A stretch of 32,339 bases of DNA, taken from Acidobacteriaceae bacterium (GTDB lineage Bacteria > Acidobacteriota > Terriglobia > Terriglobales > Acidobacteriaceae). This document shows, one piece after another, positions 683-32,313 of this stretch. The stretch covers positions 1 through 32,339 of the forward strand of contig JABFXN010000235.1 of the NCBI GenBank assembly GCA_013361705.1, given 5' to 3'. The notes under the pieces were generated by a model that had not been told where the DNA came from, made no database searches, and saw only the letters and a list, made by a program, of their open reading frames with translations. Each line of letters opens with the position of its first letter. Within the stretch, counting starts at the first letter, position 1. The position numbers and the translations under genes are program-made.

Positions 683-755
683 GCCGCAGGCCCGCATGCC
701 CGCCAAGTACAATCTCTACTAGAACCTAAAGATTGGAGTGTCGCCTTCCGCACGC

Positions 756-2132
756 ATGGCTCGCATTTATCCGTTCCGCGCCTTCCGTTATAACCCCGCC
801 AAGGTCAAGCTGGAGGATGTCGTCACCCAGCCTTATGACAAGATCACCCCGGAGATGCAGGACCGCTACTACGCGAGGCACCCGCTGAATCTCATCCGCG
901 TGATCCTGGGTAAACACTTCCCCGGCGATACCGAAGAGGGAGAGAACGTCTACACCCGTGCCGCCGACACCCTCAACGCCTGGCGCACGGATCAGGTGCT
1001 GGTCGAAGAGGCAGAACCGGCCATCTACGGCTACTCGCAGGTCTATACCGTCCCTGGCACTACTGAAACGCGTGAGCGCCGCGGCTTTATCGCCCTCGGC
1101 CACCTGTACGATTACGCCGATCAGGTGGTTTATCGCCACGAACAGACCTTCCCCAAACACAAGTCTGATCGTCTGGCCCTGTTCAAAGCGACCCGTGCCT
1201 ACTGCGAGCAGATTTACATGCTCTACAACGACCCTGGTTTCAGCGTGGAACGCCTTCTCTTTGAGAACGGCCCAGCTCCCGATCAGGCCGTTGTTGACGA
1301 CTATGGTGTCCTCCACAAGCTCTGGAAGATCACCGATCCGTCCCTGATCCGCATCATCGTGGGGGCCATGCAGGATAAGAAGCTCATCATCGCTGACGGG
1401 CATCATCGCTACGAGACCTCAGTCGCTTACTCCAAGGAGCGCGCCGCCGAGCTCGGTCTGCCTTTCAATCCGGCTCCAGGCTCTGAGACCGCAGGCGCCG
1501 ATGAGGCAGAAAAGCTGCATGTCACCGCCACGGACCTCCCCACGCCGGCCTACCCTGAAGCTGCCATGATGATGACCTTCGTCAATATGGCCGCCCCCGG
1601 AATCACCATTCTGCCGACGCACCGCGTGCTCAACGGCCTGCAGAACTTCTCGGCGGACGACTTGCTCGTCAAGGCTGCTCCGTACTTTGACAGCGCTCCG
1701 CTGAACGGCAGCAACCATGTAGCCCTCAAGGCTGCGCTCGATGCGACCGAAGGAGTGGCCTTCGTTGCCGTCACAGCCCGCGGAAGCTGGCTGCTCACCG
1801 CAAAATCTGAAGCCATTGCTCCGAAGCTGCAGGAGTTTTCTCCGCGCCAGCGCCAGCTCGATGTCGTCCAGCTCCATGGCCTGCTCTTTGCGCAGATCCT
1901 CGGTCTTTCGCAGGAACAGGTGACAAAGCTGGGCAATGTGAAGTACCTGCGCGAGGCATCCGAGGCCGTGGAACTGGTGAACAAAGGAGAGGCAGACGTT
2001 GCTTTCCTTACCAAGCCGGTAACGCTGCAACAGCTCCGCGATGTCGCCTTCGCGAACGAAGTCATGCCGCAGAAGTCCACGGACTTCTATCCGAAGTTGC
2101 TGAGTGGTCTTGCCATCTATGCCCTGGACTAG
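756..2132 (+). CDS. DUF1015 family protein
   Basis: The protein of about 458 residues matches DUF1015 over its whole length. The N-terminus MARIYPFRAFRYNPAKVK is the usual family start, followed by VVTQPYDKIT, the RHEQTFPKHKSDRL segment and the conserved motif ADGHHRYETS. The molecular function is not established; the family is cytosolic. I chose ATG 756 because family members begin MARIYPFRA, but GTG at 738 is in frame and preceded by a GGA-containing stretch, so six extra residues are possible. The stop TAG at 2130-2132 is formed by the first bases of a palindromic repeat. Without the repeat the same codon would read TAA, so the C-terminus appears unchanged by the insertion. Confidence 0.88.
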   Translation: MARIYPFRAFRYNPAKVKLEDVVTQPYDKITPEMQDRYYARHPLNLIRVILGKHFPGDTEEGENVYTRAADTLNAWRTDQVLVEEAEPAIYGYSQVYTVPGTTETRERRGFIALGHLYDYADQVVYRHEQTFPKHKSDRLALFKATRAYCEQIYMLYNDPGFSVERLLFENGPAPDQAVVDDYGVLHKLWKITDPSLIRIIVGAMQDKKLIIADGHHRYETSVAYSKERAAELGLPFNPAPGSETAGADEAEKLHVTATDLPTPAYPEAAMMMTFVNMAAPGITILPTHRVLNGLQNFSADDLLVKAAPYFDSAPLNGSNHVALKAALDATEGVAFVAVTARGSWLLTAKSEAIAPKLQEFSPRQRQLDVVQLHGLLFAQILGLSQEQVTKLGNVKYLREASEAVELVNKGEADVAFLTKPVTLQQLRDVAFANEVMPQKSTDFYPKLLSGLAIYALD

Positions 2133-2937
2133 AGCATTTTTCCTGTTACTGGGTATCCCGACAGAGACAGAGGAGTGCCGCGGTGTTTTCATTGCGGAAA
2201 ACGCCCATCGATGTGGAAGCCCTACTCTGCACCGACAGAAAAAATGCTCTAAACCCGCGTTGTTTGCGGCGGCGGTAGCGGCGCTCCTGCTGCCCGCCGC
2301 CCGCGCGCAAACCTCTGCACAACCCCCCATTATTCTTCTCGACGCAGCTCACGGTGGCCCTGATACCGGTGCACGGCTCACGGAAAAAGTTCCCGAGCGC
2401 GACGTGACCATCGCCTTCGCTAACCGCCTGCAATCCTTGCTGATCGTCCGCGGCTTCAAAGTTGTTCTAACCCACACGACACCGGACGATGCCGCCAATC
2501 TCACCGGCGATGGCCGGGTTGAGCTTGCCAACCGCTCCGGGGCCATAGCCTGTCTCACGCTGCATGCCTCCGGCAATGCCGCTGGAGTCCACATCTTCAC
2601 CTCCGCGCTTCCGGAGACGGAGCCGACTCTCCAGGGCTCGAAGCCTGTCCTCTGGAATGAAGCCCAGGCGCCATGGGTCACACGTTCGCTTCGCCTCGCC
2701 TCAGAGCTGCAGGCGGCGATTTCCCGTTCCCATACGCCCGTTACCAATCACCGCACCTGGCTGGCTGCACTTGATTCCCTCACCTGCCCCGCAGTCGCAA
2801 TCGAGCTTGGCCCGCTCGATGACGCGACCGCCCAGGACCCCGCCTACCAACAGCGGGTCGCGGAAGCCGTCGCGGGTGCTCTGCTGTTCTGGCGAGGCCA
2901 TCCAAATGCCGTTACCGGCGCGGGAGCCGTGCGATGA
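2119..2937 (+). CDS. N-acetylmuramoyl-L-alanine amidase (Amidase_3)
   Basis: The domain IILLDAAHGG...GA with H78, E93 in PERDV, the LTLHAS histidine (H149) and the late AIELGPL glutamate match the zinc ligands and catalytic Glu of Amidase_3 enzymes. These cut the amide between MurNAc and the stem peptide in the periplasm. The usual DAGHGG reads DAAHGG. A hydrophobic stretch ALFAAAVAALLLPAARAQ is the export signal. The start is uncertain: the only good in-frame ATG is 2119, upstream of the palindromic repeat, so about 40 residues of repeat-coded peptide precede the hydrophobic core. GTG 2104 is a further option, and a TTG just before the core is weak. The 3' end overlaps the next gene by 4 bp (ATGA), indicating an operon with the GerMN and murI genes. 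Confidence 0.85.
   Translation: MPWTRAFFLLLGIPTETEECRGVFIAENAHRCGSPTLHRQKKCSKPALFAAAVAALLLPAARAQTSAQPPIILLDAAHGGPDTGARLTEKVPERDVTIAFANRLQSLLIVRGFKVVLTHTTPDDAANLTGDGRVELANRSGAIACLTLHASGNAAGVHIFTSALPETEPTLQGSKPVLWNEAQAPWVTRSLRLASELQAAISRSHTPVTNHRTWLAALDSLTCPAVAIELGPLDDATAQDPAYQQRVAEAVAGALLFWRGHPNAVTGAGAVR
2130..2251 (+). repeat. Palindromic TA-flanked repeat, copy 1 (in frame with the amidase gene)
   Basis: The 118-bp element runs from GAGCATTTTTCCTGT (2132) to its near-inverse ACAGAAAAAATGCTC (ends 2249), with TA on both sides. An inner 9-bp hairpin GGTGTTTTC/GAAAACGCC has loop ATTGCG. The element together with one TA is 120 bp, or 40 codons. It overlaps the stop codon of the DUF1015 gene and is read through in frame by the amidase gene. 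Two more copies lie at 18280-18395 (inverted) and 27912-28027. The TIR and TA boundary resemble miniature elements such as Correia or ERIC sequences; actual mobility is inferred. Confidence 0.85.
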
Positions 2938-7448: not shown

Positions 7449-7616
7449 AGTTGAAAGTTAAAAGTTGAAAGTTGAAACGGTACTGCAAGGGCACAAGAAG
7501 GCCCGTCAACACACCGATGCGAGGCAACCCATCGCTAGTCGCAACTGGCAACTGGCAACTGGCAACTGGCAACTGGCAACTGGCAACTGGCAACTGGCAA
7601 CTGGCAACTGGCAACT
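7449..7616. repeat. Composite heptamer element, locus C, with an 11-unit array
   Basis: The left arm is AGTTGAA, AGTTAAA, AGTTGAA, AGTTGAA (7449-7476). The core, about 64 bp, ends GCGAGGCAACCCATCGC and a nearby TCGCAACTGGCA, almost identical to locus B. The right arm is GCAACTG repeated ten times plus a partial unit (7541-7616), perfectly uniform. Left units read GTT and right units read AAC, so the arms are opposite in sense and could pair. The array lies directly before a TACACT hexamer of the next gene. A pure 7-bp array of this length is prone to slippage. Confidence 0.85.
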
Positions 7617-7621
7617 CCAGC

Positions 7622-7627
7622 TACACT
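7622..7627 (+). promoter_or_regulatory. Candidate -10 hexamer for the DUF1569 gene
   Basis: TACACT (TANNNT form) ends 7 bases before the GTG start at 7635. It begins 5 bases after the heptamer array, so the -35 zone lies in the array. There is no Shine-Dalgarno sequence between, consistent with a leaderless transcript. This is a pattern-based call only. Confidence 0.35.
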
Positions 7628-7634
7628 GTTGGCC

Positions 7635-17436: not shown

Positions 17437-18282
17437 TTGAGCATTACCCTCGAGCAGACCATTGAACATCACTTCGCCTCCGGAGCCGCAGCGATCGGTA
17501 ATCCCGATGCTGAAAAGGCTTTCCTGGAGCTCCGCGGTCAACTCGAAGCCGGTATGCTGCGCTCAGCTTCTCCCGATGCCGCCTCGTCCATCGGCTGGAC
17601 GGTCAACGCATGGGTCAAACGCGGCATCCTGTTGGGTTTCCGCATCGGCCAGCTCGAAGACCAGTCCTGCGGCCGTCTGAGTTTTATTGATAAAGCCACC
17701 TATCCGGCACGCACCTTTACCCCGGAACAGGGCGTCCGCGTTGTACCCGGCGGTTCGTCGGTACGCAGCGGAGCCTATCTCGCCAAGGGTGTGGTGATGA
17801 TGCCTCCCGCCTATGTGAACGTTGGTGCGTATGTGGATGAAGGCACTATGGTGGATTCCCACGCCCTGGTAGGCTCCTGCGCACAGATCGGCAAGCGCGT
17901 CCACCTCTCAGCGGCATGCCAGATCGGAGGCGTGCTGGAACCCGTAAATGCTTCGCCTGTGATCATCGAAGATGATGTTCTGGTAGGTGGCAATACAGGT
18001 GTCTATGAAGGGACAATTGTTCGTTCAAAAGCAGTATTGGCGGCAGGTACAGTGTTGACGCGTGGGACTCCGGTGTATGACACGGTGAATGGAACCGTTC
18101 TGAAGGCGACGGCGGACCAACCGCTCGTTATTCCGTCAGGTGCGGTTGTGGTTCCCGGTGCGCGTGCTGTTACCAAAGGAAAAGGAACTGAGTGGGGGCT
18201 TTCCGTCTACACCCCGATCATTGTGAAGTACCGCGACGAGAAGACTGATCTCTCGACGGCACTCGAAGACTTGCTGCGTTAG
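17437..18282 (+). CDS. dapD: Tetrahydrodipicolinate N-succinyltransferase
   Basis: The 281-residue enzyme transfers succinyl from succinyl-CoA to tetrahydrodipicolinate. It shows the N-terminal helical domain and a left-handed beta-helix of hexapeptide repeats from about residue 110 ([56 protein letters not shown]). Length is normal for the family. Its presence implies the succinylase branch; dapC and dapE are not in the window. Translation starts at TTG. The stop TAG (18280-18282) is made from a TA and the first G of palindromic repeat copy 2; without the repeat it would still be TAG. Confidence 0.95.
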
Positions 18283-18395
18283 AGCATTTTTTCTGTAGGA
18301 GTAATGTAGGGTTTCCGCATCTATGGGCATTTTCCGCAATGAAAACGCCGCTGCACTCACCTTCCGGGATACCCGGCAACAGGAAAAATGCTCTA
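18280..18395 (-). repeat. Palindromic TA-flanked repeat, copy 2 (inverted)
   Basis: The 112-bp element between TA dinucleotides is the reverse complement in orientation of the copies at 2130 and 27912. The ends are GAGCATTTTTTCTGT and ACAGGAAAAATGCTC. The inner hairpin GGCATTTTC/GAAAACGCC (18326-18349) has loop CGCAAT. A further small hairpin is TCCGGGATACCCGG. With one TA the length is 114, a multiple of three. It lies between dapD and RNase J, overlapping the dapD stop codon. Confidence 0.85.
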
Positions 18396-18408
18396 GCATG
18401 AAGATTTG

Positions 18409-26546: not shown

Positions 26547-27899
26547 ATGGGGATTTCTATTTGGCTAGCGAATTGCCATAGAAGCAGTGTGACGCTAGGA
26601 AAGTTGCTCCTCCTCCCACTGTTGCCGGCGGCTTTGCTGGCAGCCCAGACGCCTGTGGATACGCCGATGCCGGCAGAGCCTGCACCGCAGCAGACGGCAG
26701 CGGCTGCTGCGTCCGGCGAACTGCGTCTGACACTCGATGACGCGCTGGCAATGGCGCGACGCAACAGCCCACGCTTGCAGGAGGCACTTGCGGGAACACA
26801 GCGCGGCCAGGCAGCGGTACAGACGGCACGCGCTTACACGAACCCAAATATCGAGGTCTTTCAAGGCCGCCAGTATGCGCGACCGATCAAGACGCCCGGG
26901 ACTCCGGGCCTGCTGCAGCACTATGCGGGTTATCAGACTATTGAGATTCCATCGGAGCGCAGTGCACGCCGGAAGGCAGCGGAGTCCATGGCAGCAAGCG
27001 CGCGAGCGGCCGAACGCGGTGTGGGGCTGAATGTGATGGCCGATACGCAACGGGCTTTCTACGACGCGCTGAAGCGGCAAGAGGAGATTAATCATGCTCG
27101 CGAGAATCTGGCGCTGGTAGAGGACCTTCGGCGACGTGTCGAGGTCGAAGTCAATGTCGGCGAGAAGGGCAAGTTAGAGCTGACACGGGCTGAAGCCGAA
27201 CTCGCCCGCGCGCGGTTTGCGGTGAACAGTGCGCAGATCGAATACGCGTCGGCGATCGCAATCCTGCGCGCTGCCATCGCTGCGCCGGCCGATGCGAACC
27301 TGATTCCCGTAGGTTCAACCACAGCGCACATGACGCTACCAGCTTTGGATACGCTGCGCGATCAGGTGCTGACCGCGCATCCGGCGGTAGCCCAATCCGA
27401 AGCGGAATTGAATGCGAGCCGATCGACACTGGACCGCGAGAAGGCGCTCCGCATCCCGCAGCCAACGGCCTTTGCCGAATTTGAAAACCAGCCCGATCTC
27501 CGGTACTGGCGCGCCGGCATCACCATTCCTATTCCGCTGTGGGACAGGCGGCGTGGACAGATTGCGGATGCAAAGGCCGCCATCTCACAGGCAAACGCGA
27601 CGCTGGACCAGCGACGTCTGGAGCTGGTGAGCGCACTGGAACGGGCATATGAACAGTACCAACTGGCTGACCAGCAGGTAACTTCGCTGGAAGCCGGATC
27701 GCTGCGAGCGGCGGAGAGTGCTGTCGAAGCAGCGAAGTCCGCATACCGGTTTGGCGAGCGCGGCATTGTTGAGGTTCTGGACGCGCAACGCGTTTTGCAA
27801 AGCGTGCGCGGCGATTTGCTGGATGCGCAGTACGCGCGCCAGTCTGCATTGATCGATCTGGAAGAACTGGGCGCACTGACGCCGGGAGTGAGGCCGTGA
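26547..27899 (+). CDS. TolC/CzcC-like outer-membrane efflux protein
   Basis: The 450-residue protein belongs to the outer-membrane efflux (OEP) family. It has a signal-peptide core (LLLLPLLPAALLAAQ), a first OEP repeat beginning LTLDDALAMARRNSPRLQEA, and a second with LRDQVLTAHPAVAQSEAEL and the RRRGQIADAKAAISQANATL helix. The pattern is that of long alpha-helical hairpins in a trimeric channel. GTG 26589 would give a shorter, more typical signal peptide (MTLGKLLLLP) and is a real alternative to ATG 26547. It is the first gene of a three-gene RND system; the next start (TGATG at 27897) overlaps its stop. Confidence 0.9.
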   Translation: MGISIWLANCHRSSVTLGKLLLLPLLPAALLAAQTPVDTPMPAEPAPQQTAAAAASGELRLTLDDALAMARRNSPRLQEALAGTQRGQAAVQTARAYTNPNIEVFQGRQYARPIKTPGTPGLLQHYAGYQTIEIPSERSARRKAAESMAASARAAERGVGLNVMADTQRAFYDALKRQEEINHARENLALVEDLRRRVEVEVNVGEKGKLELTRAEAELARARFAVNSAQIEYASAIAILRAAIAAPADANLIPVGSTTAHMTLPALDTLRDQVLTAHPAVAQSEAELNASRSTLDREKALRIPQPTAFAEFENQPDLRYWRAGITIPIPLWDRRRGQIADAKAAISQANATLDQRRLELVSALERAYEQYQLADQQVTSLEAGSLRAAESAVEAAKSAYRFGERGIVEVLDAQRVLQSVRGDLLDAQYARQSALIDLEELGALTPGVRP

Positions 27900-29164
27900 T
27901 GACACGATGGTTGGAGCATTTTTCCTGTTGCTTGGTATTCCGGGAGGAGCGTGCAGCGGCGTTTTCATTGAGGGAAACGCCCATAGATGCAAAGGCCCTG
28001 CACTACACCTACAGGAAAAAGGCTCTAGCGGCCGCGGCGATGGCCGCGGTATTGCTGGGGACAGGTTGCAAGTCGAAGCCGAAGGAAGAGAAAGCAGCTG
28101 CAGGCGCCAGCAATCCAAACATAGTAGCGGTGACGCCGGTTTTGGCCGAGAGCCTGAAGTTTGGAACACCGCAGATGGCCGATGTGACCGGAACACTCCA
28201 GGTAGCCGCACGCGTCGAGACAGATGCGCAACGCATCGCCCGCGTCGGATCTCCGGTTGCCGGACGCATTCTGAATCTGCTGGTCTTTGAAGGACAGTAC
28301 GTACGCGCCGGGGCCGTCCTGGCCACGCTGCACAGCACCAATCTTTCTGACACGCAGTTTGCATTGATCAAAGCAGCGTCACAGCGAGAGCTTGCCGCAG
28401 CGGCCGAAAAGCGCGCAGAACAACTGGTATCCGCGGATGTCATTGGCCGCGCGGAACTGGAGCGGAGACGCGCGGAGCGGCTACAGGCTACCACTGAGGA
28501 GGCAAGCTATCGCACGCAACTGCTCGGCCTTGGCATGACCGAGGCACAGATACGGCAACTGGAGACATCGCGCAAACTGAGTGCCGATTATCCGATCGTT
28601 GCTCCAAAGAGTGGAACGGTTTTGAAACGAGAGATCACCATCGGACAAGTCGTACAACCGGCAGACCCCGCGTTCACCATCGCCGATCTGTCGAATGTAT
28701 GGATCACAGCTGATGTCCCTGAGCAGGAGGCCGGAATCCTGAAGCCCGGAATGGATGTTGAAGTGCGCGTACCGGCACTGAAGGATATGCAGCTCAATGG
28801 ACGGCTCTCATTCGTTTCTCCCATTGTCGATCCGGCCACTCGCACCGTAGAGGTACGTATGGATGTCCCGAATCCCGATGGCCGCCTGAAGCCGGACGAG
28901 CTTGCCAGCATGACCTTTACTGGCCGCAGCGACCGCAAGCTCACGGTGCCCAACGCCGCAGTAGTTCGTGAAGACAACAAGGACAACGTCTTTGTCCAGA
29001 TTGGGCCGCAGCGATACATCCTGCGAGAGGTGATCCTGGGCGAAGAAGAGAACGACAGACGCGTCGTTCTTAGCGGGGTTACGCCGGCAGAGCGGATTGT
29101 GACCGAGGGAGCCTTTCACCTGAACAATCAGCGCAAGCAGGCTGCGATCAAAGGAGAGAAGTAA
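27899..29164 (+). CDS. RND efflux periplasmic adaptor lipoprotein (CzcB/CusB-like) with repeat-coded N-terminal insert
   Basis: The 421-residue protein is a membrane-fusion protein: a barrel-sandwich segment (RVGSPVAGRILNLLVFEGQY and later YPIVAPKSGTVLKREITIGQ), a helical hairpin between them, a beta-barrel (ITADVPEQEAGILKPGMDV) and a membrane-proximal domain. The lipobox VLLGTGC puts the lipidated Cys at residue 57, far later than usual. Residues 6-43 are coded by the palindromic repeat; without it the start would be MTRWLAAAAMAAVLLGTGC. ATG 27899 overlaps the stop of the channel gene (TGATG), supporting this start. The pump gene begins 2 bases after the stop. Confidence 0.9.
   Translation: MTRWLEHFSCCLVFREERAAAFSLRETPIDAKALHYTYRKKALAAAAMAAVLLGTGCKSKPKEEKAAAGASNPNIVAVTPVLAESLKFGTPQMADVTGTLQVAARVETDAQRIARVGSPVAGRILNLLVFEGQYVRAGAVLATLHSTNLSDTQFALIKAASQRELAAAAEKRAEQLVSADVIGRAELERRRAERLQATTEEASYRTQLLGLGMTEAQIRQLETSRKLSADYPIVAPKSGTVLKREITIGQVVQPADPAFTIADLSNVWITADVPEQEAGILKPGMDVEVRVPALKDMQLNGRLSFVSPIVDPATRTVEVRMDVPNPDGRLKPDELASMTFTGRSDRKLTVPNAAVVREDNKDNVFVQIGPQRYILREVILGEEENDRRVVLSGVTPAERIVTEGAFHLNNQRKQAAIKGEK
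27912..28027 (+). repeat. Palindromic repeat, copy 3 (inside the fusion-protein gene)
   Basis: The 112-bp element runs GAGCATTTTTCCTGTTGC (27914) to ACAGGAAAAAGGCTC (ends 28025), with TA on the right and TG on the left. The inner hairpin GGCGTTTTC/GGAAACGCC has loop ATTGAG. With TA it is 114 bp, or 38 codons. It lies in frame between codon 5 and the hydrophobic core of a lipoprotein signal and is fully open in that frame. Orientation is the same as copy 1. Confidence 0.88.
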
Positions 29165-29166
29165 GC

Positions 29167-32100
29167 ATGCTGCAGTCCATCATTGCGGCTGCTTTGCGGC
29201 AGCGCCTGGTCCTCGTGGTGGTTGCGTGTGTGTTGATGGGCTTCGGCCTGAGCGCGGCGCAGAAACTTTCGGTCGACGCCTTTCCGGATGTAGCGAACAT
29301 ACAAGTACAGATTGCCACTGAAGCCGCCGGGAAGAGCCCGGAAGAGGTAGAGCGCTTCGTCACCATCCCGATTGAGATCGCGATGACCGGTCTGCCGGGC
29401 ATGACAGATATGCGGTCGCTGAATAAGCCAGGGCTGTCTCTGATCACACTGGTCTTCACGGATGAGAGCGACCTCTATCGCGAACGCCAGATGGTCTCTG
29501 AGAGACTGGCGGAGCTACGTGACCGCATGCCTGAAGGTGTCACGCCGGTGCTGGGACCGATCACCAATGCGTTGGGCGAGGTGTATCAGTACACACTGGA
29601 GCTCCCGGGCGAGGCCGAGGAGCATCATGTGCTGACGCGGGATGAGTTGATCGAGCGGCGCACGCTACAGGACTGGGTTGTTCGTCCCTTGCTACGGGGT
29701 GTTTCAGGTGTTGCCGAGATTAACTCGACCGGTGGCTACGTCAAGCAGTATGAGACGCTGGTTGAACCGCAGAAACTGCATTACTACAACCTGACCATCA
29801 ACGATGTCCGGGCGGCGCTGGCGCGCAATAACGCCAATGCTGGTGGAGGTGTGCTGCCGCAGCATGCAGAGCAGTATCTGATCCGCAGTGTGGGCCTGGT
29901 ACGCGATATAGCCGACATCGAAAATATCGTCCTTAAGGAGAACAAGAACACACCGGTCTATGTACGCGATGTAGCGACGGTTCGCATCGGAACCGAGGTC
30001 CGCTACGGCGCGATGATGAAGAACGGATACACCGAGGCCGTAGGCGGTGTCGTGCTGATGACCAGTGGCGGCAACGCCAAGGAGATCGTAAGCCGCGTGA
30101 AGGAACGCGTGGCCGAGATCAATGGCAAGCACATGATTCCTGGCGGCCTGCAGCTGGTGCCCTACTATGACCGCTCGCAACTGGTAGACGCGGCGATTCA
30201 TACGGTAACCGAGGTGCTGGGTGAAGGCATTGTCTTCGTCGTCGTGATCCTGTTCCTGTTTCTGGGTGATCTACGGTCCAGCCTGATCGTCAGTGCGAAC
30301 CTGATCCTGACACCGCTACTGACTTTCCTGGTGATGAACAATATCCACCTCTCGGCGAACCTGATGTCGCTGGGCGGTCTAGCGATTGCCATCGGCCTGA
30401 TGGTGGATGGATCGGTCGTGGTAGTGGAAAACGTCTTCGCTCGCCTAAGCCACAACCACGACCATGTGCATAGCGAGGAAAAGCCTTCGAAGCTGCGCCT
30501 CGTTCTGGACGCGACGCAGGAGGTCGCAACGCCTACGCTCTTCGGCGTAACCATCATCATCCTGGTCTTTCTCCCACTGATGACACTGGAGGGAATGGAA
30601 GGCAAGATGTTTGCTCCGTTGGCATACACCATAGCCATCGCGCTGGCTATCTCGCTGGTGTTGAGTCTGACGTTGTCGCCGATTCTCTCGTCGTATCTGC
30701 TGAAAGGTGGATCAGAAAACGACACGTGGCTGGTGCGGTGGCTGCGCAAGCCTTACAACGCGATGCTGAACTGGGCGCTGGGGCACCGCAAAGTGCTGGT
30801 CGTTGGCGTGGTGCTTGCCTTCTTCGGATCGCTCTCGCTCTTCCCTTTCCTGGGAACCTCGTTCATTCCGGAGATGCAGGAGGGCACGCTGTCGCCTAAC
30901 GCAGATCGCGTGCCGAACATCTCTCTGGAAGAGTCGCTGCGCATGGAAGGAAAGATGCAGCAGCTCATCATGAGCGTAAAGGGCGTGGAGAACGTGGTCT
31001 CGCGTGTAGGACGCGGCGAATCACCCGCCGACCCGGCAGGGCCGAACGAGGCCGACGTGCTCGCGTCGCTGACGCCATTTGATGAGCGTCCGCGCGGCAT
31101 GACACAAGACAAGATCGCAGAGGAGATCCGCGAGAACCTGGCGAAGCTGCCGGGTATCAATCTGGTGATGTCGCAACCAATCAGCGATCGCGTCGATGAG
31201 ATGGTCTCGGGTGTACGCGCCGACGTGGCCGTGATGCTGTATGGCGATGATCTTGATCTTCTGGTGCAAAAGGCAAACCAGATTGCGAAAGTCGCTACTG
31301 GGATCCAGGGTACGCAGGATACACGCGTAGATCGCGTGGGCGGCCAGCAGTACCTGACGATCAGCATCGATCGTGGAGCGATTGCGCGGTACGGTCTGAA
31401 TGCTGCCGATGTGAACGATGTCATCGAAACTGCCATCGCGGGGAAGTCGGCCTCTGAGGTTTATGAAGGCGAGCGCCGTTTTGCCAGTGTGGTGCGCCTT
31501 CCTGCCAATTTGCGCGATTCGCTCGAAGATATCCGGCAGTTGCAGGTCAGCTCGCCGGATGGGCCGCGTGTGCCACTCAAAGACCTGGCCAGCGTAAACG
31601 TCGTAGAGGGTCCGGCGCTCATCAACCGCAATATGGGCAAGCGCCGCATTGTGGTGGGCGTGAATGTACAGGACCGCGATCTCGGTGGATATGTAGCAGA
31701 ACTGCAGCAGAAGGTGAACCAGCAGGTGCAGTTGCCGGCAGGCTATTACATCGAGTGGGGCGGACAGTTTCACAACATGGAGCGGGCACTGCATCACTTG
31801 ATGATCATTGTGCCGATCACGATTGCGGCGATCTTCTTCCTGCTGTTCATTCTGTTCAAGTCAGTTCGCTTTGCCGCGCTGATCATCACGGTGCTTCCGC
31901 TGGCCTCCATTGGAGGCATTCTGGGGCTGTTTATCTCCGGCGAGTATCTCTCAGTACCGGCATCGGTCGGCTTCATCGCGCTGTGGGGTATTGCCGTGCT
32001 GAACGGCGTGGTGTTGGTGAGCTACATCCGCAAGCTACGCCAGGAGGGTCTGTCACAGGAGGATGCCATACGACAAGGGACGCGCCTGCGCTTCCGTCCG

Positions 32101-32313
32101 GTGATGATGACCGCGACCGTTGCGGCGTTGGGCCTGGTTCCCTTCCTGTTTGCGACGGGACCGGGATCTGAGATTCAACGGCCGCTGGCGATTGTGGTGA
32201 TTGGAGGTCTGGTGAGTTCGACGGCGTTGACGTTGATTCTCTTACCCGTGGTGTATGCAACGTTTGAGGGAAAGAATGCACAGGTGGCGTTGGAGGAGAC
32301 ACCTGAGGTGTAG
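29167..32313 (+). CDS. Heavy-metal-type RND efflux pump (CzcA/CusA family)
   Basis: The 1048-residue inner-membrane pump has the family N-terminus (QKLSVDAFPDVANIQVQI), twelve expected membrane segments and two large periplasmic loops. The proton-relay segment in the fourth membrane helix reads GLAIAIGLMVDGSVVVVENV, with D414 and E421. The position of CzcA D402 is Ala (A408), as in CusA, but DGS differs from the CusA DAA. The substrate is thus not clearly Zn/Co or Cu/Ag. The gene is complete, starts 2 bases after the adaptor gene and ends 26 bases before the window edge. Channel, adaptor and pump form one envelope-spanning complex. Confidence 0.94.
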   Translation: MLQSIIAAALRQRLVLVVVACVLMGFGLSAAQKLSVDAFPDVANIQVQIATEAAGKSPEEVERFVTIPIEIAMTGLPGMTDMRSLNKPGLSLITLVFTDESDLYRERQMVSERLAELRDRMPEGVTPVLGPITNALGEVYQYTLELPGEAEEHHVLTRDELIERRTLQDWVVRPLLRGVSGVAEINSTGGYVKQYETLVEPQKLHYYNLTINDVRAALARNNANAGGGVLPQHAEQYLIRSVGLVRDIADIENIVLKENKNTPVYVRDVATVRIGTEVRYGAMMKNGYTEAVGGVVLMTSGGNAKEIVSRVKERVAEINGKHMIPGGLQLVPYYDRSQLVDAAIHTVTEVLGEGIVFVVVILFLFLGDLRSSLIVSANLILTPLLTFLVMNNIHLSANLMSLGGLAIAIGLMVDGSVVVVENVFARLSHNHDHVHSEEKPSKLRLVLDATQEVATPTLFGVTIIILVFLPLMTLEGMEGKMFAPLAYTIAIALAISLVLSLTLSPILSSYLLKGGSENDTWLVRWLRKPYNAMLNWALGHRKVLVVGVVLAFFGSLSLFPFLGTSFIPEMQEGTLSPNADRVPNISLEESLRMEGKMQQLIMSVKGVENVVSRVGRGESPADPAGPNEADVLASLTPFDERPRGMTQDKIAEEIRENLAKLPGINLVMSQPISDRVDEMVSGVRADVAVMLYGDDLDLLVQKANQIAKVATGIQGTQDTRVDRVGGQQYLTISIDRGAIARYGLNAADVNDVIETAIAGKSASEVYEGERRFASVVRLPANLRDSLEDIRQLQVSSPDGPRVPLKDLASVNVVEGPALINRNMGKRRIVVGVNVQDRDLGGYVAELQQKVNQQVQLPAGYYIEWGGQFHNMERALHHLMIIVPITIAAIFFLLFILFKSVRFAALIITVLPLASIGGILGLFISGEYLSVPASVGFIALWGIAVLNGVVLVSYIRKLRQEGLSQEDAIRQGTRLRFRPVMMTATVAALGLVPFLFATGPGSEIQRPLAIVVIGGLVSSTALTLILLPVVYATFEGKNAQVALEETPEV

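Follow-up and report, generated by a model that had tools for sequence, protein, structure and literature searches.

MITEs that duplicate a TA target are on record in several bacterial groups, namely RUP in Streptococcus pneumoniae (with IS630-Spn1), Correia/NEMIS in Neisseria and ERIC in the enterobacteria (PMC2229807, in its accessible sections). The element described here resembles them, as far as those sections portray them, in its size class (~100-150 bp), terminal inverted repeats, TA ends, long RNA stem-loop and many copies; however, it resides in an unrelated host lineage and no partner transposase has been tied to it. RUP, according to the available text, has stops in all six frames, whereas the consensus of the present MITE has three open phases. 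A second term of comparison is provided by the Rickettsia palindromic elements (RPE), which are likewise palindromic, of similar size and found in frame in protein genes (PMC10969869 and PMC2229807, excerpts of both). The parallel concerns palindromic structure, size and in-frame insertion, the present host being an acidobacterium. In these excerpts RPEs occur in unrelated genes in general, whereas the established in-frame coding insertions of the present MITE are in signal-peptide n-regions, and its TA duplication is demonstrated below.

Two other systems come close. The Yersinia gene YPO1552 encodes a predicted exported protein whose signal peptide is partly formed by the YPAL/RU-2 MITE (PMC2229807, accessible sections), and in Coxiella burnetii the edges of QMITE1 and QMITE2 supply stop codons, with some in-frame fusions (PMC5896051, in the portion available). 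YPO1552 is, on that account, probably a new gene made by fusion, whereas here conserved proteins with insert-free orthologues were entered, 12 times; the Coxiella record, in the portion available, is a table of some genes, whereas 71 gene stops lie at the edges of the present MITE among 176 copies. In these partial sources there is precedent for MITEs flanked by TA, for MITE fusions in frame, for a signal peptide built by a MITE (one case) and for stops supplied by MITEs; it is the recurrence that looks new. Our literature search, which covered few subscription papers, found no report of one MITE repeatedly inserting in the signal peptides of conserved proteins, nor of a MITE for which stop codons hold a large part of the copies. 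Here we demonstrate the insertion of such an element into an adaptor gene, its empty site, the TA duplication and the keeping of the frame, together with recurrence in 12 independent signal peptides.

The adaptor insertion and its empty site

The window (the whole stretch of 32,339 nucleotides that was analysed) carries on its + strand an efflux operon recognized from open reading frames and Pfam: an outer membrane channel (OEP, 26547..27899), an RND periplasmic adaptor lipoprotein (HlyD_D23, above cut-off, 27899..29164) and an RND pump (ACR_tran, 29167..32313). The TGA of the channel frame overlaps the adaptor ATG at 27899 (TGATG), and the metal-efflux adaptor ZneB (3lnn) is the top-scoring solved chain for the adaptor. 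The adaptor sequence has the features of a lipoprotein signal, i.e. an n-region, a hydrophobic core and a Cys after a small residue, and the orthologues keep GC after the core; signal peptides were assessed via hydrophobicity and orthologues, and the lipoprotein assignment follows the lipobox rule. The N-terminus consists of MTRW, 38 further codons and ALAAAAMAAVLLGTGC, with the lipobox residue at Cys57. The open reading frame, its translation and the repeat comparison confirm the initial annotation in that these 38 codons, between the start in the TGATG overlap and Cys57, are repeat-coded.

They result from a net insertion of 114 bp (27914..28027, +), made up of a 112-bp MITE body and one TA, which encodes LEHFSCCLVFREERAAAFSLRETPIDAKALHYTYRKKA(L) in phase +2. 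The right TA of the target duplication stands at 28026..28027 (+, in CTAGCG); the left one, TA in the consensus of the other copies, is now TG (27912..27913, +), giving a Leu codon TTG where CTA is presumed to have stood. The insert occupies the identical codon in four orthologues (G000, G002, G009 and G013), and the orthologue of G017, 88% identical over the shared part, is an empty site reading ATG ACA CGA TGG TAT GCG GCC GCG GCG, i.e. MTRWYAAAAMAAVMLTAGC. The proposed in-frame palindromic insertion within the adaptor signal peptide thus has good support from four orthologues with the insert and one lacking it: the insert-free N-terminus that was to be sought among relatives exists in G017, and the real empty site is close to MTRWLAAAAMAAVLLGTGC, the product predicted by deleting 114 bp on paper. 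Seven more distant adaptor orthologues have no such insert, and their genomes gave no repeat match.

This reading assumes that the upstream ATG is used. The element might instead be a present 5' leader, with translation starting downstream, at the in-frame TTG at 27968 within the insert or the ATG at 28040 beyond it, and with a fortuitous upstream frame. We hold this to be improbable: the start, a GAGG/GAAG Shine-Dalgarno-like stretch and the TGATG overlap are kept in G000, G002, G009, G013 and the empty G017, the insert is 114 bp long and open in all four filled species, and an amidase copy of the same MITE gained 6 bp in frame. Furthermore, in a protein begun at 28040 the Cys would be preceded by MAAVLLGTG only, with no basic residue. 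The leader is favored by the gene finder, which places the adaptor start at 28040, by the absence of amino-acid constraint on the insert and by seven other read-through copies that look like leader insertions (all discussed below). We keep translation from the upstream ATG as the preferred reading; the gene-finder start is probably wrong, and automatic start-codon calls can err in genes of this kind. In the draft genome G013 (contig C550) the adaptor match is broken into two pieces, by a draft error or a frameshift.

A TA-specific MITE

A copy of a palindromic MITE, ~116 bp long with its two TA ends included, occupies positions 27912-28027 of the window, and a within-window repeat search pairs it with others at 2129-2252 and 18277-18396. 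The family model (116 nt including both TA) derives from 35 own-genome rows, a few of which are the same copy twice. Counting orthologous copies of different species each, there are 188 distinct full-length copies: 82 in G009 (1.2 Mb), 12 in G002 (0.4 Mb), 72 in the own genome and 22 in other stretches. A 30-base end pattern with <=3 mismatches has 120 matches (60 + 60) in the own genome, against 0 + 0 for the reversed-pattern control. Repeat matches were found in six of the 61 genomes searched, strong in G000, G002, G009 and G013 and weak in G011 and G017, and the MITE is abundant in four of the 19 same-genus genomes searched, the own one included. Stretches of G002, G009 and G017 also contain related elements with lower scores, of which several have ends close to TAGAGCAATTCTCC; these perhaps form a second family. 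The window also holds a tandem array of GCAACTG units at 7520-7630.

The generic traits of a MITE are all present: a short repeat, terminal inverted repeats and no transposase gene. In the adaptor copy, the left terminal inverted repeat GAGCATTTTTCCTGT (27914..27928, +) is complementary at 14 of 15 positions to the right one, ACAGGAAAAAGGCTC (28011..28025, +), and the ends of the MITE read TA-GAGCATTTTYCC. In 101 of the 188 copies the two inverted arms are identical over seven bases, versus 45.5 copies expected if the arms were independent. Several empty orthologous sites hold a single TA, with TA on both sides when the site is filled, which is a target-site duplication. The target preference, computed on 115 copies (the other 73 of the 188 are without TA at one or both annotated ends), is palindromic, approximately CGC-TA-GCG, in the 54 copies that lie outside stop codons and have TA at both ends.

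A TA target is that of IS630/Tc1-mariner-derived MITEs, and the element has it. The terminal inverted repeat of the own-genome IS630 element starts GAGCA and then differs from the MITE ends; the IS630 elements of G002 and G009 differ as well. A scan of IS630 loci and of distant end-motif pairs for an autonomous partner, leaving out four G009 pairs with one end in a known copy, gave nothing convincing. We also considered a REP/RAYT origin, Y1_Tnp being present in five of the six genomes tested and the MITE end motif (<=2 mismatches) lying within the loci of three of the 23 hits (L143, L147 and L155). The TA duplication and the 15-nt inverted ends lend no support to this origin, such a combination being unlike REP elements. 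No Rfam family reached its gathering score within the window.

As RNA, the whole element folds strongly (z = -4.57), and MITE hairpins have been proposed as RNase III targets (PMC2229807, accessible sections). It could be the hairpin rather than the peptide that matters, a stem after the start codon tuning adaptor output or mRNA processing in the efflux operon. That seems very unlikely to us: the start region, taken with just a portion of the element, is no more stable than shuffled sequence (z 1.23 and -0.29), the change in the right arm of the adaptor copy breaks one pair (14/15), and the tuning of one operon leaves the twelve events in different exported genes unexplained.

Rather, we regard it as probable, from the comparison of sequences, that a non-autonomous, TA-specific MITE of the Terriglobus lineage survives where its insertion costs little, and that the adaptor copy is an in-frame n-region insertion. 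The MITE would have entered the n-region of the adaptor lipoprotein signal peptide before the four sampled species split, presumably by cut-and-paste through an IS630-type enzyme acting in trans, at a putative target TGG CTA GCG (Trp-Leu-Ala) matching the preferred palindrome of the family, C-G-C-T-A-G-C-G. The insertion adds 114 bp, a multiple of three, and the open phases allow the element to be read through. Translation would proceed from the original ATG, the lengthened n-region of ~41 residues would remain acceptable to the Sec and the lipoprotein machineries, and cleavage by signal peptidase II would dispose of the insert, leaving the mature adaptor unchanged.

The coding properties of the family bear on this scheme. 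The MITE consensus is open in three of the six phases; the element ends read R-K-N-A-L (or Q-E-K-C-S), and the RKNAL-type sequence appears in both orientations. By virtue of the inverted-repeat ends, these residues stand ahead of the hydrophobic core, and a basic stretch does often precede the core. The Arg-Lys-Lys to which the initial annotation drew attention is found just before the core in G000 and G013, while G002, G009 and the family consensus read RKN; RKK is therefore not the original state of the repeat.

In-frame insertions in signal peptides

The adaptor insertion is one of 12 independent events in which the MITE entered an exported protein in frame, between start codon and hydrophobic core, and for each of which an insert-free counterpart is available. 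The amidase (Amidase_3, window copy 1) and a GH43-like protein (Pfam GH43 below cut-off) are, like the adaptor, empty in G017. An M1-like peptidase (Pfam M1 below cut-off) is filled in G000 only and empty in G013, G002, G009 and G017, and a DUF885 protein is filled in G000 only and empty in G009, its N-terminus differing in G002. Outer-membrane barrel proteins (OMP_b-brl_4) were entered in G009 at 1047377 of the joined run (empty in G002), in G000 and G002 at L196 (empty in G009), and in a second G009 gene (empty in G000, G013 and G002). The L075 protein, with no Pfam match, is filled in G000 and G002 and empty in G009, and a SAM_HAT protein of G009 is empty in G002 and G000. Lastly, the Reg_prop sensors of G002 and of G013 were entered at different sites (two events), so that each is the empty control for the other. 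The phases, +2 (3 events), +1 (3) and -2 (6), are all three open phases of the consensus. An insertion at an export signal in an acidobacterium had initially been thought new; with 11 other events here, and the MITE-derived signal peptide of Yersinia YPO1552 described in the accessible sections of PMC2229807, the adaptor case is not unique.

These events come largely from a survey of the 176 classifiable copies among the 188, 12 having been dropped for lying <400 bp from a stretch end. Within it, 24 copies lie in open reading frames that read through the element into the gene body, or 20 loci once the adaptor and amidase orthologues are merged; this list is a lower bound, the G013 adaptor copy (L031) having been missed and labelled non-coding in the length comparison. 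Ten of the 20 loci are insertions between start and hydrophobic core with insert-free comparisons. They make up ten of the 12 events, the other two being the L075 copy, too near a stretch end, and the G013 Reg_prop copy, which was not surveyed. When the other ten loci were set against relatives, the site lay upstream of the apparent start in seven (G009 33188, 96190, 376586 and 1036549; L052, L054 and L060); L187 was compared with no relative, and G009 865629 and L171 are unclear. Those two unclear loci aside, no in-frame copy was seen within a mature or cytosolic coding region in the 176-copy survey, and outside the read-through list the same survey classed no copy inside a predicted gene. 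Of all phase-compatible TA sites in genes, 8.7% fall within the first 30 codons, and 34% of these early sites (38% when weighted by target preference) belong to genes with a hydrophobic core; the P values of this comparison presuppose independence of the events and imprecise start calls. On disrupted genes, the evidence covers the 30 empty-site rows, with a stop codon at the site in 13, a predicted gene in one (the M1 signal peptide) and no predicted gene in 16.

An in-frame ATG is present within the element in the six reverse-phase events (MKTPLH..., MKTPLR... or MKTPPR...), and the left TA has been turned into part of an ATG in two cases, the Reg_prop gene of G002 and one receptor of G009; initiation in these genes may therefore take place within the element or at its border. 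At G002 282551 and G009 1047377 (joined-run coordinates), a change of the left TA to TG makes ATGGAGCAT at the element edge, a possible scar-made start codon.

The adaptor insert has equal length and an open frame in four species. Among six pairs of coding copies that species share, in the adaptor and the amidase, the length differences are 0 or 6 bp. The eight shared non-coding pairs, a set that excludes the mislabelled adaptor copy L031 and includes three comparisons of window copy 2, differ by 1, 1, 2, 16, 8, 2, 0 (two gap columns) and 0 bp, a non-multiple of three in six of eight; the pair differing by 16 bp carries 71 mismatches, and its orthology is in doubt. We tested the insert for amino-acid selection and found none: the pooled pN/pS is 1.13, a test with little power since the frame-shifted readings give 1.08 and 0.70, and the variable sites are spread over the codon positions as 5/5/4, versus 7/4/15 in the next 30 codons. 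Over the 12 final residues of the insert, the net charge ranges from +1 to +4 in ten of 12 rows and is 0 in two, in a table that has the adaptor twice and is without the G013 Reg_prop insert, and so covers 11 of the 12 events.

These data bear on the idea that the element was tolerated because it supplied a working n-region. Some of it stands, insofar as the function is plausible and the end charge mostly positive, yet the zero charge in two rows and the lack of amino-acid constraint (pN/pS 1.13) speak against a stricter version, in which the insert is an exapted n-region selected for improving adaptor targeting. Retention in four species and a basic end ahead of the core would agree with such a role; the pN/pS value, the even spread of variable sites (5/5/4 vs 7/4/15) and the two uncharged ends among the 12 tabulated rows do not, and we find it quite unlikely. 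Conservation of the frame without conservation of the amino-acid sequence fits filler better than a tuned signal.

Removal with the signal peptide would explain why in-frame coding insertions are found there and not in mature domains. From the pattern of sites, export tags would seem to offer coding DNA parasites a refuge. A wider proposal, which we advance tentatively and rate at slightly less than an even chance, is that signal peptides serve coding transposons as sites of post-translational disposal: suited as an n-region by its length, open phases and basic ends, the MITE would have spread time and again into the start regions of exported proteins, since signal peptidase would erase it from the mature product. 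Rebuilt stop codons and cut-away n-regions would together make a testable rule for the harmless entry of small mobile elements into coding DNA. The old question raised by RPEs, whether in-frame palindromic elements are selfish or useful, can likewise be recast as a comparison between orthologues with the element and without it, in the named strain T. albidus DSM 26559 and its relatives.

Insertions at stop codons

Among the 176 classifiable copies, 71 gene stops have their first base exactly at an element edge. In the contiguous G009 stretch 26 of 82 copies are at stops, versus 8.5% of the non-coding-plus-stop TA sites (binomial p 2e-9), and a local null, which includes each copy's own site, expects 35.2 stop-edge copies where 70 of 176 are observed. 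All ten empty-site rows for stop-edge copies (eight distinct sites; three of the rows align loosely, with gaps of -5, -4 and 12) have a stop codon at or <=6 bp from the empty site. The TA together with the first base of the element, G, rebuilds TAG, and stop codons are therefore a low-cost niche. The CTAG-type target preference may explain part of the excess, as may selection against other intergenic sites.

Both remaining copies in the window are of this kind. Copy 1 (2130..2251, +) does two things at once: it ends the upstream DUF1015 gene (738..2132, +), supplying the three bases of the TAG stop as its own first three, and it makes up an in-frame part of the signal peptide of the Amidase_3 gene (2104..2937, +), where it is read in phase +1 and a conserved ATG (MPW...) stands at 2119. 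The stop is TAA in the empty site of G017; the copy thus entered the TAA, which was rebuilt as TAG, and, read in the other phase, it extends the overlapping amidase's signal peptide. The own-genome copy 1 has a 6-bp gain that leaves the amidase frame intact. The edge of copy 2 (18280..18395, -) is the TAG stop of a THDPS/hexapeptide gene (17437-18282), with an RNase J gene next to it. Copy 2 also occurs in G002 and G009, with length differences of 1-2 bp.
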